Below, piece after piece: positions 4,346 through 10,723 of a stretch of DNA of 44,811 nucleotides. The DNA is from Clostridia bacterium. Its GTDB lineage: Bacteria; Bacillota; Clostridia; Christensenellales; Aristaeellaceae. The position numbers and the translations under genes are program-made. The DNA is taken from positions 1-44,811 of the forward strand of contig JAFWXL010000113.1 in the NCBI GenBank assembly GCA_017545905.1. The letters are read 5' to 3'. Within the stretch, counting starts at the first letter, position 1. The number at the start of each line of letters is the position of its first letter. Under the pieces are notes generated by a model that was not told the DNA's origin, made no database searches, and saw only the letters and a list, made by a program, of their open reading frames with translations.

Positions 4346-4391
4346 CAAAAAGCCCTTCTCTGCCGGAGGAAGACCTCATGCAGAGAAGGGC
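4346..4391 (-). terminator. Intrinsic terminator of the molybdoenzyme operon
   Basis: Perfect 12-bp stem: GCCCTTCTCTGC (plus 4352-4363) with GCAGAGAAGGGC (4380-4391), followed on the minus strand by TTTTT. It lies about 30 nt past the mobA stop codon and closes the operon. Confidence 0.9.
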
Positions 4392-4419
4392 CAATCTTTC
4401 ATTCAAGGCGGATACCGCA

Positions 4420-5001
4420 TCATGCTTGATGCCTTTCCCGAAAAGCGCGCGCATCGTCGGGCGTGTTCAGGTTCCTAAAGACGTCATTCTTCAGATGCGC
4501 AGGGAGCTCAGTCTTTCTGAGCTTCATGCTCTCGAGCATCCACATCATCTTGAGCTTTCCTGTTCTGAGATGCTCGTCAAGTACCGCTATGCAGCTTCTG
4601 CTGTATACGCCGATAAGCGGCTGCGACCTGCCTTCGTCATCCACCAGCACGAGCGCATCCAGCTGCGGATCATACTGTTCCTTCAGATAGCGCGCAAGCT
4701 CGGCGCTGTAATACGGCGCATCACACGGCGCCGTCACCAGCGCGTCGCAATCCGTCTTGCACAGCGCCGCATGAATCCCCGCCATCGGGCCGCAGTCGGG
4801 ATAGACATCTGCACAGCGCGCATAGCCTTCAGGTGCAGGAATAGACGGATCATTCACCGACAGAATCCGCACATCGAATTCTTTTCCGGCGTCGGCAACG
4901 GTATCCAGCAGCGTGCGACCATTCACCTCAAGCAGCGCCTTGTGCGTTCCCATGCGCGTGGATTTGCCGCCACTGAGCAGCAGAAAACCGATTTTTGCCA
5001 T
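4420..5001 (-). CDS. mobA: Molybdenum cofactor guanylyltransferase
   Basis: A 193-aa MobA: it attaches GMP to molybdopterin, giving the bis-MGD cofactor needed by DMSO-reductase-family enzymes. The nucleotide-binding signature is LLLSGGKSTRMGTHKALLEV at the N-terminus, followed by VYPDCGPMAGIHAAL and the APCDAPYYS metal-binding block. The start at 5001 is chosen because it gives MAKIGFLLLSGG, with GAGG upstream. It begins 11 nt after the polyferredoxin stop. As last gene of the molybdoenzyme operon it would supply the cofactor under the same control as its client. No other cofactor genes (moaA, moeA) are in the window. Confidence 0.93.
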   Translation of the reverse strand: MAKIGFLLLSGGKSTRMGTHKALLEVNGRTLLDTVADAGKEFDVRILSVNDPSIPAPEGYARCADVYPDCGPMAGIHAALCKTDCDALVTAPCDAPYYSAELARYLKEQYDPQLDALVLVDDEGRSQPLIGVYSRSCIAVLDEHLRTGKLKMMWMLESMKLRKTELPAHLKNDVFRNLNTPDDARAFRERHQA

Positions 5002-5012
5002 TTCTGCATTCC

Positions 5013-6053
5013 TCACTTCCGTCTCTTCTGCCTGCAGGCAATGCACAGCGTTTCTTCTTTTCCCGGAGAAATCGCTCTGCCGCAGCGTTCACAGGATCGG
5101 GATTCCACCTGTCTGAGCAATACGCGATCCATATGCGGCAGCTTCATCATGCAGATTTCGCCCACGCAGCCGTCACGGCAGACCGCTTTGCATACGCCGC
5201 AGCCGGTGCATTTATGCGGCGTGATGAAAACAGGCCGTTTTCCAGCCTGCTCCTCACCGATTTCCAGCGCGCCGCCCGGGCACAGCAGCGCGCAGATGCC
5301 GCAGCCAAAGCATTCGTCCGTCATCCATGGCAATGTCATCGTGCAGGAGAATTCCGTCCGGTTCTTGGCCAGTTCGCGAACCCTCGACGCGAGCATCCGC
5401 CGGTAGATCATGGCGTCCACCCTGCTGCCGGCAACATCATTGATCACAAGCGCCGTCGCCTTTTGACCGCCATGCGCCATCGCGCGGAAGAAATCCCTGC
5501 GGCTGACGCCCTCTTCCTTTACATTCGGCAAATCATCAAAGCACACCTGCACATGAGCAGCGTATCCTTCCTCGCCCAGAAAGCATTTGAGCTTATACAG
5601 CTGATCTTCGAGCAGTTCAAGGCAGTCCTCATGCGGACAGTCCTTGCACGGTTTCAGATTGAGAATCAGCTTCCCGCCCAGCGCCAGATACGCCAGAAAC
5701 TCCCATGGCAGCAGTGCAAGGCATTCCTCAACATGACCCGCCTGTTTTTCTCCTCGCCTGCAGGAGAGCACAATCTCGCCCGTTCTCTCCGCCAGCAGCA
5801 GATGGCGCTTGCTATTAGCCGGAGAGGGCGCAATGCAGCGCGACGGGCATGCCGCCACGCACAGGCCGCAGCTTTGGCATTCATTCCATTTGGGCGGCGT
5901 TTTCTGCTCCCGGTCATAGACGCCTTTGGGACAAACGTCCATGCAGGCGCTGCAAGTCACGTGCTTCTGATTGCGGTTGATGCAATGCGAAAGGGACGGA
6001 AACGGATGGTCATCCACTGCATTGGTTTTGATCACATCCAGCAAAAGGCTCAT
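5013..6053 (-). CDS. Multi-cluster 4Fe-4S protein of the molybdoenzyme operon
   Basis: A 346-aa iron-sulfur protein, probably an electron carrier or redox partner. Two 4Fe-4S motifs lie near the N-terminus (CSACMDVCP, CQSCGLCVAACP), a third cysteine group (CKDCPHEDC) in the middle, and two more ferredoxin motifs near residue 270-310 (CFGCGICALLCP, CTGCGVCKAVC). The C-terminus adds a small zinc-ribbon-like pair (CERCG...CIAC) ending in basic KRRK. SRRDFF in the middle resembles a twin-arginine motif but is internal. Start at 6053 follows GGGAG at 9 nt; the ATG 9 nt earlier overlaps that site. Similar proteins occur beside DMSO-reductase-like genes, but I know of no defined role. Confidence 0.8.
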   Translation of the reverse strand: MSLLLDVIKTNAVDDHPFPSLSHCINRNQKHVTCSACMDVCPKGVYDREQKTPPKWNECQSCGLCVAACPSRCIAPSPANSKRHLLLAERTGEIVLSCRRGEKQAGHVEECLALLPWEFLAYLALGGKLILNLKPCKDCPHEDCLELLEDQLYKLKCFLGEEGYAAHVQVCFDDLPNVKEEGVSRRDFFRAMAHGGQKATALVINDVAGSRVDAMIYRRMLASRVRELAKNRTEFSCTMTLPWMTDECFGCGICALLCPGGALEIGEEQAGKRPVFITPHKCTGCGVCKAVCRDGCVGEICMMKLPHMDRVLLRQVESRSCERCGRAISPGKEETLCIACRQKRRK

Positions 6054-6079
6054 CCGTTTCATCTCCCTTCATCCTCAGG

Positions 6080-6112
6080 AAAAGGCCCGCAGCACCACAT
6101 GGCACTGCGGGC
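6080..6112 (-). terminator. Hairpin between dmsB and the polyferredoxin gene
   Basis: An 8-bp GC-only-but-one stem, GCCCGCAG (plus 6085-6092) with CTGCGGGC (6105-6112), is followed on the minus strand by CTTTT. It looks like a weak intrinsic terminator or an RNA-stabilising hairpin that would lower expression of the last two genes relative to dmsA and dmsB. Confidence 0.55.
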
Positions 6113-6205
6113 TCTTTATATTTGAATCTTTTCACTTCCGGCCTCGTGAGCCAAATCCGTTTTCTTTGACAAACTTCGTCGGAAGCGGGTGCGGGCACAG
6201 CCCGC

Positions 6206-6793
6206 TTAAGTATTCTTTTCTTCGAACTCCGGATTGAACGCACACTCGCGCGCATTGATGAGGAAGTTCGGTGCGGTGCCGTTATCCGCGAAGCAGTGCA
6301 GCGCAGTCACGACGTTATCACCATACTTCGCCCTCAGCTCGTCAACCGGACCGAACTTGAGCGCGCGCATCATGCAGCTGGCCACGCAGGCCGGCTCGCC
6401 GCCGGCGGCCACGATATCCTTGCACATGTCGCACTTGACGACCTTCTTCGCCTCCGCCTTGTACACCGGATGATGATACGGGCAGGCGTCCACGCAGCGC
6501 AGGCATGCCTCGCCGGCGCACATCGCATTCGGATCATGATAGACCACGCCGGTCTCGGGATCCTTCACCGTGCGCCCCGTCGGGCAGGCGTCCACGCAGG
6601 CCGGATAGGTACAGTGCGCGCAGCTCTCGGCCATGTGATAGATGCCAACATTCGGGAACTCGCCGGTTTCATAGGTGCGAACCTTGCGCAGCAGCTCGCC
6701 GACCTCGAGGCGGTTCTTGTCCTTGCAGGCGATCTGACAGGTGTGGCAGCCAGCGCACGCCTTCTGATCAAAATAGAATCCATACTGTGCCAT
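6206..6793 (-). CDS. dmsB: DMSO-reductase-type electron transfer subunit (four 4Fe-4S clusters)
   Basis: A 195-aa DmsB/NrfC-type subunit that passes electrons to the catalytic subunit. Sixteen cysteines fall in four motifs: C13-C16-C19-C23, CAHCTYPACVDACP, CAGEACLRCVDACP, and CDMCKDIVAAGGEPACVASC. It has no signal peptide, as expected for a partner that travels with the Tat-exported catalytic subunit. The ATG at 6793 follows TAAGGAGG, 14 nt after the dmsA stop. No DmsC-like membrane anchor follows; the next gene is a soluble polyferredoxin. Confidence 0.93.
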   Translation of the reverse strand: MAQYGFYFDQKACAGCHTCQIACKDKNRLEVGELLRKVRTYETGEFPNVGIYHMAESCAHCTYPACVDACPTGRTVKDPETGVVYHDPNAMCAGEACLRCVDACPYHHPVYKAEAKKVVKCDMCKDIVAAGGEPACVASCMMRALKFGPVDELRAKYGDNVVTALHCFADNGTAPNFLINARECAFNPEFEEKNT

Positions 6794-6807
6794 GGTTGTC
6801 TGCCTCC

Positions 6808-9501
6808 TTACTCAAAAAGAATCGTCTGCGGAACGTCGCAGTCCGCCGGGAGAGGCTCCTCGGTCCACTTGCTGATCTGAACGTTCAGCGAGTTATAGCC
6901 GTCGATGCCCAGGCCGGTGGCGACATTGCCGGTGATGTAGTTCTCGGAGCCGCTCTTGTCGACACCATTCTTCTCATCGACATTCACCCACGGGCCGTGC
7001 GGCAGCGCCACAACGCCCGGATACAGGCGCGCAGTCACGGTGGCATGGCGCAGGGTCTCGCCGTACTTGGAGGAGACCTTCACAGTGTCGCCATCGACGA
7101 TGCCGCGCTCGGCAGCATCGGCCTTGGAGATGAACACCGGGTTGGTGCATGCCTCGCGCAGCCACGGGATGTTGTCGAAGATGGAGTGCGCACGGCGCTG
7201 ATAGTGCGGGTTGTAGCACTGGAGCGGATACTCGCTCTTGGCGCCCTTGATATCGCCATCCACGAAGGTCGCTTCGTAGCCCTGGGCGATCGGCTGATAC
7301 TTCGGCAGGCCATGATACTCCGCCTCGGAGAAGCCGTGGCTGTTGATCATGTCGGCATAGGTCTGGCAGTAGAACTCGATCTTGCCGCTGGTGGTCGCGA
7401 TCGGGTTCGCTTCCGGATCCTCACGGAAGGCCTGCTTGTCGATGTAGCCCAGCTTATCGCCCGGCTTGCGGTCGACACGGTACATGCCGTCCTCAAAGTA
7501 CTTCTTGATGGAGATGCGGCCCTCCTGCGGCTGACCCTCCACGCCCCACTCCCTGATGTCATCCTCGGTGATGGAGACGAGGTTTTCCCAGGTCTCGCCG
7601 TCTTCCTTGATGACGGTGGAAGTCGCGACGGAATTGAACAGCTGCTGGGTCGCGCTCATGGTGCCCCACATATCGGCAGAAAGGCCCAGCTTCTCGCCGA
7701 TCTTGATGCTCGCCTCGGTATCGGAGACGGACTCAAAGTACGGATCGAGCACCTGACGGTTGATGAGCAGGATGTCGCGGTTGTAGTAGCCGTCCCAGAT
7801 GTACGCGCCCTCGCGCTCCCAGTTGGTGGAGATCGGCAGGACGATATCGCAGTACTTGTTGGTCGCCGTCAGGAAGTGGCCCTGGCCCACGACGAAGTCC
7901 ATCGCGCGGAAGACCTCGATACCCTTCTTGACGCCCTCGCAGCAGGTCAGCTTGGCAGATGCGCCGTTCCAGATCATCTTGACCGGAGCGGTGATGTTCT
8001 CAATGCGCTTGGACAGGTCGTAGCCTTCCATGCCGCCCTTCCAGCCCAGGCCCCAGCCGTTGATCATCGTCCACAGGGTGGTCGGGTTGAACGGCTTGCC
8101 CATGCAGGCGTCCCACAGCTGGGTCTCGGAAACGGAGGTTGCAGAGCCCGTGCCGCCGGCGCCGCCGACGTCGCCAGCGCTGCCCACGCGGATCAGGCGC
8201 GGACCGAAGTTATTGGTGTGGTTCCATGCAGTCGGGCCGGTGCAGTGGCCGCTCTTGCCGATATGGCCGCCCATCGCGCCCAGGCAGATGGCCAGCTGCG
8301 GCAGCTGCTCGGTGTTGTAGTTGCGGGCGGTGGCCCAGCTGGAGAGCAGCGCAACCTTGTTGTCCTTGCCCAGCACGCGGGCGACCTGACGCAGGGTTTC
8401 GGCCTTCACGCCGGTGATTTCCTCGGCCCATTCCGGGGTCTTGGCAACGCCGTCGTATTCGCCCTTGAGGTAGCCGAAGAAGTTCTCATCGGTCTTCGCG
8501 TCGGCGGGCATATGCTCCGCGTCGAAGCCCACGCAGCAGCGATTCAGGAAGTCCCAATCGATCAGGCTGCCGTCCTTATCCTCCTCCAGCATGACATAGG
8601 CCATCGCCAGCATGGCGGCCATATCCGTGCCCGGGCGGATCGGCACCCACTGCGCGTCAAGAATGGACGCGGTATCGGTGTAGATCGGGTCAAAAAGGAT
8701 AAACTTGGTGCCCGCTTCCTTCCATGCCTTGGCGTAGTTGGTCGCGTTGCCTAGGGAAGACCAGGCCGGGTTATAACCGAAGGCCACGACATATTCGCAG
8801 TTGAACATGTCCATACGGTCGTTGTTGCAGTTGTAATCGTAGCAGGCGTCGCCCCAGCCGAGCACGCCCGGCGCGAACCAGCCGCCCCAGGAGCCCGTGC
8901 GCCAGGCGCTGAGGTAGTTGATGTTCATCTTGTTGAGGACGTCGGTGCCCGCGCCGTTGCACAGGATGGCATTGTCGCCGTAGGTTTCATTGACGCGCTT
9001 GATCTCGTCGGCGATATACTGGGCGGCCTCGTCCCAGGAGATGCGCTCCCATTCGTCGATGCCGCGCAGCTGGCCGTTCGGATTGCCCGGAGTCCAGTTC
9101 TTGCGCTTCATCGGATACTTGAGGCGGTCCAGACCGCGCGCCTGATACTGCTGGGAGAAACCACGCAAGCAGGAACGCTGCTGACGGTTGTACTGATCGT
9201 CCGTGTTGTAGTCGTCAGTCTTCTGACGAAGGATGACGCCGTCCTTCACATAGGCCTTCACCAGACACTTGCCGCCGCAGTTGTGCCAGCAGGGAGCCGC
9301 GACCCACTTGCCGCCGTCTTCGCCCACTGCGGGTTCAGCGGCAGCCGGGATGGTCTCCTCGCCGGTCGCCTTGAGGGTGTTGCTCTCGGCAATGGCGGTC
9401 GCATTCAGCGCGAAGCTGGCGGTACCGATCGCAGCGGCAGAACCCTTCAGAAAGGTGCGGCGGCTGACCATGGTATCGAGCACGTTTTGAATCAGTGCCA
9501 T
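6808..9501 (-). CDS. Molybdopterin oxidoreductase, DmsA-like catalytic subunit with Tat signal
   Basis: An 897-aa member of the DMSO reductase family. The N-terminus has a twin-arginine signal (SRRTFLKG at 13-20, hydrophobic run, then ATAIAES), so it should be exported folded. C71, C75, C79 and C111 would hold the FS0 4Fe-4S cluster, and the C-terminal cofactor domain has the DmsA-like RRAHSIFDNIPWLREAC and GDTVKVSSKYGE blocks. GDAC at 217-220 sits where E. coli DmsA has GDYS, so the molybdenum ligand may differ (alignment by eye). Substrate is unknown: sulfoxide, N-oxide and other oxyanion reductases share this architecture. Start at 9501 follows GAGAGGAAAG. Confidence 0.9.
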   Translation of the reverse strand: MALIQNVLDTMVSRRTFLKGSAAAIGTASFALNATAIAESNTLKATGEETIPAAAEPAVGEDGGKWVAAPCWHNCGGKCLVKAYVKDGVILRQKTDDYNTDDQYNRQQRSCLRGFSQQYQARGLDRLKYPMKRKNWTPGNPNGQLRGIDEWERISWDEAAQYIADEIKRVNETYGDNAILCNGAGTDVLNKMNINYLSAWRTGSWGGWFAPGVLGWGDACYDYNCNNDRMDMFNCEYVVAFGYNPAWSSLGNATNYAKAWKEAGTKFILFDPIYTDTASILDAQWVPIRPGTDMAAMLAMAYVMLEEDKDGSLIDWDFLNRCCVGFDAEHMPADAKTDENFFGYLKGEYDGVAKTPEWAEEITGVKAETLRQVARVLGKDNKVALLSSWATARNYNTEQLPQLAICLGAMGGHIGKSGHCTGPTAWNHTNNFGPRLIRVGSAGDVGGAGGTGSATSVSETQLWDACMGKPFNPTTLWTMINGWGLGWKGGMEGYDLSKRIENITAPVKMIWNGASAKLTCCEGVKKGIEVFRAMDFVVGQGHFLTATNKYCDIVLPISTNWEREGAYIWDGYYNRDILLINRQVLDPYFESVSDTEASIKIGEKLGLSADMWGTMSATQQLFNSVATSTVIKEDGETWENLVSITEDDIREWGVEGQPQEGRISIKKYFEDGMYRVDRKPGDKLGYIDKQAFREDPEANPIATTSGKIEFYCQTYADMINSHGFSEAEYHGLPKYQPIAQGYEATFVDGDIKGAKSEYPLQCYNPHYQRRAHSIFDNIPWLREACTNPVFISKADAAERGIVDGDTVKVSSKYGETLRHATVTARLYPGVVALPHGPWVNVDEKNGVDKSGSENYITGNVATGLGIDGYNSLNVQISKWTEEPLPADCDVPQTILFE

Positions 9502-9539
9502 GTTCTTTCCTCTCACTTTCTCTCTTTGATGATTTATAC

Positions 9540-9569
9540 AATATACGATCCGTATATGGTATCCGCAAA
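9540..9569 (-). promoter_or_regulatory. Possible internal promoter and dyad operator before the DmsA-like gene
   Basis: The plus strand at 9541-9557 is a perfect inverted repeat, ATATACG-ATC-CGTATAT. On the minus strand it lies between TTTGCG (9569-9564) and TATATT (9545-9540), spaced 18 nt, and overlaps that -10. This is the layout of a regulator-controlled promoter in the 140-nt gap between the chaperone and catalytic genes. The -35 match is poor (3 of 6); the dyad is certain as sequence, the function is inferred. Confidence 0.4.
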
Positions 9570-9641
9570 CACATGCATCTTACAAAGCCAAATAAAACAC
9601 ACTTAAAACAAACTCTCAGTTATACAAAACGCCTCAAAAAA

Positions 9642-10310
9642 TCACTCGACCGCCAGCAGCTCTTCAATCGCCTGCTGATCGTAGGCGATGAAATCTGCCA
9701 TTGCTCGCACCAGCTGCGGATAAAGCAGCTTTGTTTCGCTCTTATCCATATCCGCGCAGTAAGCGTCCATCCAGTTCAGGATGTGATTCTTCTCAAAGAG
9801 CTTCTGTCCTTCCAGCAGGCTCTTGTAACCGCACAGGAGTCCCTGTTCAAAGCAGGCCTTCGCGCGCTCAGTCGTCAGCGCGAGGAAGTGCATCATCAGG
9901 CTGATGTGATCATCCGGATGGCTGGGATAGCCGGAAGGTACATAGCTGTACTGCTGATACCATGAACGCACATGCAGCGTCGATTCCTGAAAAAGCGCGC
10001 GCTCCTTGGCGGTATAGCAAGATTCCCACGGCGGCGCAATCAGCTTGTCCGGGCCGAGGAACAGGCGGGTATACTCGCTGCGCGCAGCATCCTCATCCAG
10101 TCCGCCGCAGGAGGCAATCACATTTTTGAGCTTTACGGCCGCCTCACTGTCCCCTTCAAACAAGGCAAGCGCCGCAAGGCTTTCCTCGCTGGACACGGCA
10201 TCCAGCAACTCCTTCGTCGGCTCGCTGCCCAGCAGCCTGTGAAACAGAGAAAACACATATGCTCTACCCGCCATCAGCGTGGCGATAACTTCTTTTATCT
10301 CGTTGTTCAC
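9642..10310 (-). CDS. TorD/DmsD-family redox enzyme maturation chaperone
   Basis: A 222-aa all-helical TorD-type chaperone that binds the Tat signal of its molybdoenzyme and delays export until the cofactor is inserted. The family signature is present as PSHPDDHISLMMHFLAL, and the ERALFQESTLHVRSWY region is typical. I chose the GTG at 10310-10308 because GAGGAG lies 9 nt upstream; an ATG at 10340 is in frame but has only a weak site. The frame stays open far upstream through the terminator and aptamer, which is non-coding leader. It is first in the operon and is directly controlled by the leader riboswitch. Confidence 0.87.
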   Translation of the reverse strand: MNNEIKEVIATLMAGRAYVFSLFHRLLGSEPTKELLDAVSSEESLAALALFEGDSEAAVKLKNVIASCGGLDEDAARSEYTRLFLGPDKLIAPPWESCYTAKERALFQESTLHVRSWYQQYSYVPSGYPSHPDDHISLMMHFLALTTERAKACFEQGLLCGYKSLLEGQKLFEKNHILNWMDAYCADMDKSETKLLYPQLVRAMADFIAYDQQAIEELLAVE

Positions 10311-10378
10311 CGCAATACTCTCCTCAAATCCGGTATTCATGGCAATACAGCCCGATTTTGCACAATTCCCGCTTATAC

Positions 10379-10413
10379 AAAAAAAGCACGTCAGGTGATT
10401 TCCCGTGACGTGC
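10379..10413 (-). terminator. Intrinsic terminator of the cobalamin riboswitch
   Basis: Perfect 8-bp stem, TGACGTGC (plus 10406-10413) with GCACGTCA (10386-10393), followed on the minus strand by seven T. It lies between the aptamer and the first gene, with about 77 nt of linker that could form an antiterminator. This is the standard expression platform for transcription-terminating riboswitches: ligand bound, transcription stops. Confidence 0.9.
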
Positions 10414-10490
10414 AGTGAAAGCGCAAACGACTCCCTGTCATCGCAAAACATAAAGGCTTCATTCTCCATCGCCCGAGAAAAGTCTTTCCA

Positions 10491-10672
10491 CCATACAGAG
10501 CAGGTCTCCTGACTGATTGAGCGAGGCATGTTCTCCCCGCTGGATGCGCCTTCTCAGGCTCTCGCCCAATGGCCGTACACCCTGATGACAAAACACAGTA
10601 ATGGCTGTTGCGCCGGATTCCGACCGGCTTCCCTTTTCATCCGGAGCTGCTTGATCCGGACACTCTGCATGG
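10491..10672 (-). ncRNA. Cobalamin (B12) riboswitch
   Basis: Read on the minus strand, the leader carries the conserved cobalamin aptamer parts in order: GGGAAgccGGT (from about 10633), GAATCC, ACTGT, the GGCCATTGGG...GAGAAGGC pair of segments, and the B12-box-like AGTCAGGAGACCTGC near the 3' end. A 10-bp P1 helix closes it: CCATGCAGAG (10672-10663) with CTCTGTATGG (10500-10491), one G-U pair. A consensus promoter stands just upstream and an intrinsic terminator downstream. It is in front of the TorD-DmsA-DmsB-ferredoxin-mobA operon, not a B12 synthesis or uptake gene. Established riboswitches of this kind repress when cobalamin is bound. Confidence 0.92.
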
Positions 10673-10694
10673 CTATTCGATTATTCACGGTTAT

Positions 10695-10723
10695 ATTATA
10701 AAGCCGATCTGTCCGTATGTCAA
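10695..10723 (-). promoter_or_regulatory. Consensus promoter of the riboswitch-molybdoenzyme operon
   Basis: Minus strand TTGACA (10723-10718) and TATAAT (10700-10695) with a 17-nt spacer: all twelve consensus bases. Transcription should start near 10688, about 16 nt before the aptamer P1 stem. Such strong basal transcription fits control by attenuation rather than by an activator. Confidence 0.9.

Follow-up and report, generated by a model that had tools for sequence, protein, structure and literature searches.

Why should an operon for a molybdoenzyme stand behind a vitamin B12 riboswitch? The question is posed by contig JAFWXL010000113.1 of a Clostridia bacterium of the Aristaeellaceae, which was analysed over its full 44,811 nucleotides (the window). 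On its minus strand a promoter, a cobalamin aptamer and an intrinsic terminator precede genes for a TorD-type chaperone, a DmsA-like catalytic subunit, a DmsB-like Fe-S subunit, a polyferredoxin and a MobA-like protein, in that order. We read this arrangement as a B12-responsive riboswitch of the host family's type placed before a sulfoxide-reductase-like operon, with the reductase salvaging methionine when the B12 enzyme MetH stalls, and put the probability of this reading as a whole at about 0.6. From the sequence, B12-responsive control of the operon is very probable, and that B12 turns the operon off is probable too; that the purpose is linked to methionine is a tentative proposal.

The window is contig 13 of its own genome (G000; 2.53 Mb in 115 contigs, 78% complete), whose close relatives are metagenome-assembled Clostridia, for the most part from the ruminant gut. 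Two congeners recur below: G177 (goat-rectum isolate RGIG3027; also L008 and L013) and G135 (also L024). From a search of the genome collection with the catalytic subunit 80 loci were kept out of 164 relatives, 14 at an identity of at least 68% and a remaining 66 at 39-51%. The close operons discussed here number 15, being the window and the relatives at 68% identity or above with duplicates counted once (G177, G135 and G088, which is also L016, each figure once). Two of the 15, L018 and L019, have a contig end not far upstream, and their leaders are only partly visible.

A cobalamin aptamer of the host family's own type

A scan of the whole window against Rfam returned two matches, both on the minus strand: an RNase P RNA (11191-10854) and a cobalamin riboswitch (10682-10482). 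The latter covers the RF00174 model from 1 to 189 (of 189) at 93.9 bits, with a gathering threshold of 31.5 and an E value of 3.3e-22. The cobalamin aptamer that an initial annotation, made from the letters alone, had proposed for the minus-strand leader is thus confirmed, as is the consensus promoter before it (TTGACA is found upstream of the G177 leader too). The same annotation had given the aptamer a 10-bp P1; the helix is there, its size being 12 pairs in the Rfam alignment, one of them marked non-standard. The conserved core of the aptamer is AGGAGACC/GCCATTAC. A P13-like hairpin follows, and a related TTTCTTGGGCAAGG element is found 3' of most aptamers of the family.

The aptamer belongs to a variant with CAACAGCCATTACTGTGT, which, among the 23 aptamers first aligned, is shared only by the window, G177 and one aptamer from the assembly of G088. 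With at most one mismatch, the signature occurs at 42 places in 34 of 308 host-family genomes; the reversed pattern, used as a control, had no match among the genomes listed. Probable double counts in one assembly (L122/L163, at contig ends, and L141/L164) bring the total to about 40 distinct sites. Downstream genes were examined for 41 hits and the window, representatives being named by domain search and the others by similarity to the representatives. The first recognised gene encodes a BtuF-like binding protein in 16 of the 42, CbiK in 7, CobD in 6, a CbiE/T-type protein in 4 and CobA in 1. Two others are YitT genes, one is unknown, two are TorD-DmsA (the window and G177) and three are undetermined (L122, L140 and L155, with L122 and L155 cut by contig ends). 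In three of the four CbiE/T-type assignments the gene, 38-40% identical, comes some 2.2 kb after the aptamer and beyond an unassigned stretch. B12 synthesis or uptake genes thus follow 34 of the 42 hits (33 when the roughly 40 distinct sites are counted), and it can be argued from this association that the ligand is a cobamide. As far as sequence can tell, the window leader holds a genuine B12 aptamer under structural constraint, of the type found in the B12 regulon of the host family itself.

The constraint is seen when the Rfam structure is transferred from the window onto 28 aligned leaders (28 of the 42 signature hits, leaving out L118, which is identical to L117, as well as L122, L127 and L154-L164). 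Changes on both sides occur in 27 of 51 pairs, compared with a mean of 17.4 after shuffling (repeated 500 times without once reaching 27) and with 16-20 for slid partners. In P1, 10 of the 12 pairs have changed on both sides. The helices of the peripheral arm (7 and 10-12) pair poorly on the leader alignment, in 0-33% of cells. Of the columns in which the other 26 aligned leaders never vary, 55 in all, the window and G177 have kept every one, and between the two there are four pairs that are altered on both sides with pairing kept.

Sequence just 5' of the promoter is 48% different between the window and G177. Differences at fourfold-degenerate sites, compared for four operon genes with mobA left out, amount to 50% for torD, 23% (22.7%) for the catalytic gene, 37% for that of the DmsB-like subunit and 41% for that of the polyferredoxin. 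The upstream neighbour is the RNase P RNA in the window and a gene for a HAD-like phosphatase (recognised by eye) in G177. Since these neighbours differ, the leader and operon have remained joined in two genomic settings.

Beyond the two species the association does not extend far. The initial annotation had suggested that RF00174 hits be sought upstream of TorD-DmsA genes in other genomes; one congener, G177, has such a hit, and none is seen at 13 of the 15 close operons (L018 and L019, with leaders partly visible, among them) or at the 66 distant loci. An aptamer model (R1), built from 23 aptamers and run over 88 sources, recovered an aptamer outside its building set (L095); at operon loci its matches were confined to the window and G177, with none at the 66 distant DmsA loci. 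An Rfam scan of 14 close loci agrees with R1, and so does a motif scan of the loci, save for two loose matches (L015 and L042) that are without the AAAGGGAA element. RF00174 was also searched for, with stricter filters, in 47 whole genomes accounting for 50 of the 80 loci. The riboswitch-operon link is narrow, not widespread.

How the leader would switch

In the most probable mechanism, binding of a corrinoid would let the aptamer fold along with the P13-like hairpin, and transcription would halt at 10379; with no ligand, the polymerase would read through into torD-dmsAB-polyferredoxin-mobA. The intrinsic terminator that this requires, and the five genes on one strand behind it, had been listed in the initial annotation and are borne out by sequence and by family searches. 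The folding energy of the terminator stem is -14.9 kcal/mol in the window; the G177 leader has a stem of different sequence and comparable strength, at -17.5 kcal/mol, so that both terminators are strong. A consensus scan did not list the window terminator, probably owing to its bulged stem. A kissing loop between L5 and L13 of cobalamin riboswitches has been described (PMC9600662; here and below, cited papers are drawn on in the parts available to us). The L5-L13 pairs inspected by eye in these leaders are too short for a claim.

The reductase

The catalytic subunit scores 445.2 bits with TIGR02166, for which the cut-off is 777.7, and so is related to DmsA but falls short of membership in the modelled family; it is 34% identical to E. 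coli DmsA. Its Tat motif, SRRTFLKG, aligns with SRRGLVK of DmsA, and the Tat signal model PF10518 matches it at E 3e-4 and 20.9 bits, slightly under the cut-off of 22.7. Serine 205 (in the numbering of the 898-residue translation of 9504-6811) is invariant in 37 sequences and aligns with the GDYSS serine of E. coli DmsA, which we take to be the molybdenum ligand. The window enzyme is a Tat-exported, probably serine-ligated molybdenum enzyme. A cysteine ligand had been considered (C221, in a GDAC motif that resembled the GDYS of DmsA by eye); it was discarded, because C221 falls outside the columns that are invariant, or nearly so, in the 37 sequences, and S205 is both invariant and aligned to the DmsA serine. 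Selenocysteine, suggested by an in-frame TGA in G088 and G135, was discarded too: the query began 26 codons 5' of the ATG, in both genomes the unbroken frame opens within the stretch that was matched, and the stop is upstream of the start (L009, open reading frame 11491-8792; L010, open reading frame from 11189).

An AlphaFold model of the catalytic subunit is good (pLDDT 84.1), and the best solved relatives by sequence are the DMSO reductase 1eu1 and, second-best, 7l5i, presumably MtsZ of Haemophilus influenzae. The operon had been called a complete one of the DMSO reductase family. The word complete goes too far: a DmsC anchor (PF04976) is absent from the operon and was matched in none of nine genomes, with E. 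coli positive as the control. As for possible substrates, methionine sulfoxide and N-oxides are both reduced by E. coli DmsABC (PMC12096835), and free methionine sulfoxide by BisC and TorZ/MtsZ (PMC8076862).

B12-dependent enzymes and the purpose of the operon

MetH, of about 790-820 residues, was the only B12-binding-domain protein to turn up in G177 and G135. A domain check was made of the G177 copy and of the homocysteine methyltransferase-MTHFR fusion next to it. Searches of G000, G177 and G135 for MetE, NrdJ, QueG, EutB and the corrinoid Fe-S protein (CFeSP) found none of them; CdhD did give hits in G177 and G135, but these fall inside MetH. A search for diol dehydratase is uninformative, its control having been silent. 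Relatives whose operons lack the switch differ: the L014 genome encodes EutB and gives a partial match to a MetE domain, the L021 genome has CFeSP, and G088 has five hits with B12-binding domains.

Should the operon take over from a corrinoid-dependent process, that process would be methionine supply, since MetH is the only B12-binding-domain protein seen in the two congeners. With MetE not detected there, methionine salvage is the most economical purpose that can be proposed and would rank ahead of an electron sink. With MetH stalled, the exported reductase would return methionine outside the membrane, reducing methionine sulfoxide, or some similar sulfoxide, to its thioether. The strictest form of this proposal, in which the exported molybdenum sulfoxide reductase stands in for MetH by regenerating methionine from methionine sulfoxide whenever B12 is short and MetE is missing, is somewhat more doubtful than a methionine-linked purpose in general. 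The logic has a known counterpart in metE, which serves under B12 riboswitch control as a backup to MetH (PMC9600662).

Weighing the alternatives

A number of results count against methionine salvage under B12 control. The riboswitch stands before only 2 of the 15 close operons, those of the window and G177, and G135, with a reductase that is 94-98% identical and the same background of MetH without MetE, has a leader without a riboswitch. In G000 metH was not found, which at 78% completeness may be an assembly gap, and the substrate is fixed by nothing in the sequence. Taken as a whole, the aptamer differs by 24.7% between the window and G177, at least as much as the catalytic gene does at its fourfold sites, and among the 51 Rfam pairs 8 are standard for the window alone and 6 for neither of the two on the leader alignment. 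The 3' parts of both leaders are of ordinary folding stability (z -1.29 and 0.14). A specific antiterminator is not demonstrable: the 7-bp complementarity between the 5' strand of P13 and the terminator is equalled in 12% and 44% of shuffles, and antitermination through that pairing was dropped as no better than chance. Much of this would suit an operon that landed behind, or recombined with, a B12 riboswitch of the family, so that B12 control had no metabolic reason and selection for it was weak or nil. The narrow distribution of the link, the divergence of the aptamer and its unmatched pairs are what such a capture would leave, and the neighbours of the operon differ among G000, G177 and G135, so that it seems to be mobile. 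What speaks against capture is that both species keep the 55 columns and the four compensated pairs, and that a terminator is retained despite replacement of its sequence; constraint is visible in the core of the aptamer, which is intact while the whole has diverged, and not in its average. We consider capture unlikely.

Other purposes for B12 control fare less well. The initial annotation had envisaged the reductase as replacing a corrinoid-dependent electron sink, that is, as an alternative respiration for times when an electron-consuming pathway stalls. Proteins of the DmsA family are commonly respiratory, and FMN_bind and FAD_binding_2 genes lie near the operon in L017 and L032; however, no partner pathway is seen in G000, G177 or G135, in which CFeSP, EutB, NrdJ and QueG were looked for and not found and MetH is the only protein with a B12-binding domain (in G177 and G135), and the anchor DmsC is lacking. 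The electron sink has accordingly been rejected as quite improbable. That the sign is reversed, B12 turning the operon on, or that the leader makes a separate small RNA in place of repressing the operon, is given slightly less weight still. Cobalamin switches of both signs exist and no result here fixes the sign, but aptamer, P13-like hairpin, strong terminator and genes follow one another in the usual OFF arrangement. Farthest from what we would expect is a true B12-acquisition gene, with the reductase acting on a cobamide precursor or on the redox state of a corrinoid. It is true that the same aptamer subclass mostly governs B12 synthesis and uptake elsewhere; we know, however, of no corrinoid role for relatives of DmsA, of which the window enzyme is one with the conserved serine, and G000 has other riboswitch-controlled, uptake-like genes (for a DUF4430 protein). 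Methionine salvage behind a B12-responsive OFF switch is therefore the reading that we retain, and its regulatory part is probably right.

Features of the operon and its surroundings

The coordinates of the leader, the genes and the elements between them are collected in Table 1. Chaperone scores with the NCBIfam TorD and DmsD models are under the cut-offs of those models; its gene probably starts at the GTG at 10310, after GAGGAGAG, with an ATG at 10340 in frame as well. The MobA-like protein scores 102.8 bits with TIGR02665, under the cut-off of 151.85. Between the DmsB-like and polyferredoxin genes is a GC-rich hairpin-plus-T element (6112-6085) that is also present in G177 and G135; because it precedes the last two genes, polyferredoxin and MobA may be less strongly or separately transcribed and so only partly under the switch.

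Table 1. Elements of the riboswitch-reductase locus in the window
Feature	Coordinates	Strand	Evidence or detail
Promoter TTGACA-17-TATAAT	10695..10723	-	sigma-70 consensus match 12/12
Cobalamin riboswitch aptamer, family variant with CAACAGCCATTACTGTGT	10482..10682	-	RF00174 93.9 bits
P13-like hairpin TTCTC-GGGCGATG-GAGAA	10462..10479	-	block identical in G000 and G177
Intrinsic terminator between aptamer and torD	10379..10413	-	stem 10413-10386, then seven T to 10379
TorD-type chaperone gene	9642..10310	-	PF02613 E 3.3e-26, over its cut-off
Tat-exported DmsA/YnfE-like molybdopterin catalytic subunit, 897 aa from ATG	6808..9501	-	TIGR02166, PF00384, PF01568, PF10518
DmsB-like Fe-S subunit, 195 aa	6206..6793	-	TIGR02951 177.7 bits (under its cut-off of 214.1); PF13247
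Intercistronic hairpin and T tail, possible leaky terminator	6085..6112	-	12-pair stem
Polyferredoxin-like protein, 349 aa, ferredoxin domain at each end	5013..6062	-	PF00037, PF12838, PF13187
MobA-like molybdenum cofactor guanylyltransferase, ATG 5001 (GTG 5046 in frame too)	4420..5001	-	PF12804 5.5e-31
Operon-end inverted repeat, then T-rich tail	4352..4391	-	18-nt arms, 89% complementary

A few observations lie to one side of the argument. Upstream of the operon, a perfect promoter with TG before its second hexamer (11231-11203, minus strand) is found a short distance before the RNase P RNA gene. In two relatives, flavoprotein genes with FMN_bind and FAD_binding_2 domains are near the operon (L017, 27-1793 and 2574-3893; L032, 4617-2737), which suggests flavin-based reduction outside the cell; L017 also has a radical SAM gene upstream of torD.

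The aptamer subclass and its relatives have other companions. Genes for YitT-like membrane proteins stand behind the same subclass in two genera, near position 1500 in L136 (G068) and in L143 (G088); the L143 protein matches PF02588, the L136 protein is 69% identical to it, and YitT is a further target with no obvious role in B12 metabolism. In L137 (1243-284, minus strand; G310) a subclass aptamer precedes a 320-codon open reading frame that has no Pfam or NCBIfam match. G000 has a second RF00174 riboswitch (L012, 8535-9828, contig 86) before genes for a DUF4430 protein and a 176-aa protein with no family match, and this looks like a B12 uptake unit. G177 likewise has a second and weaker RF00174 match, at 53.8 bits (L095, 7211-6997, minus strand, contig 110).

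Significance and comparison with known systems

The initial annotation knew of no molybdoenzyme under such control, and this still holds for what could be consulted: no molybdoenzyme controlled by a B12 riboswitch was found in the available text of the literature searched, most subscription journals being outside it. A 2013 survey of regulons lists as targets, in the part available, synthesis, B12 transport, cobalt transport and isozymes (PMC3766115), and the molybdoenzyme operon fits none of those classes. A precedent for an unexpected target is a fatty-acid desaturase in metagenomes (PMC2211319). One paper, on P. freudenreichii, mentions both a B12 riboswitch and a molybdoenzyme; the riboswitches in its accessible portion are before cbiL, cobD and cbiM (PMC11494915). 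The locus is thus a known class of riboswitch with a new kind of target, in two species.

If the control were confirmed, B12 shortage would become a testable condition for a reductase of uncultured gut bacteria that has no known substrate, and the link would point to methionine salvage; the locus would also exemplify the joining of a riboswitch cassette to an operon whose location has shifted inside a single genus. If the reductase does stand in for MetH, B12-independent backups would gain a new class that is not a synthase, and regulation would directly link the metabolism of cobalamin to that of the molybdenum cofactor.

With the class I cobalamin riboswitches (RF00174) that precede operons for making and importing B12, the leader has in common its aptamer core, its long P6 region, the P13-like hairpin after P1 and the terminator downstream. 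What sets it apart is the operon behind it, which encodes a molybdoenzyme and not proteins of B12 synthesis or uptake or an isozyme that works without B12. In its logic the operon would be like the riboswitch-controlled metE of genomes that also have metH, for example Priestia megaterium (PMC9600662, in the part available), switching on when MetH is without cofactor and toward the supply of methionine; in contrast to MetE, the window enzyme is not a methionine synthase, and its methionine link is hypothetical. With the S- and N-oxide reductases DmsABC and YnfEFGH it shares a Tat signal, a TorD-type chaperone, a DmsB-like subunit and serine at the presumed position of the molybdenum ligand, whereas the operon has no DmsC anchor and adds a polyferredoxin, and identity to E. 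coli DmsA is at the level given above. The methionine sulfoxide reductases MtsZ/TorZ and BisC are likewise of the DMSO reductase family, and the window enzyme, although of a different subfamily, could share their substrate.

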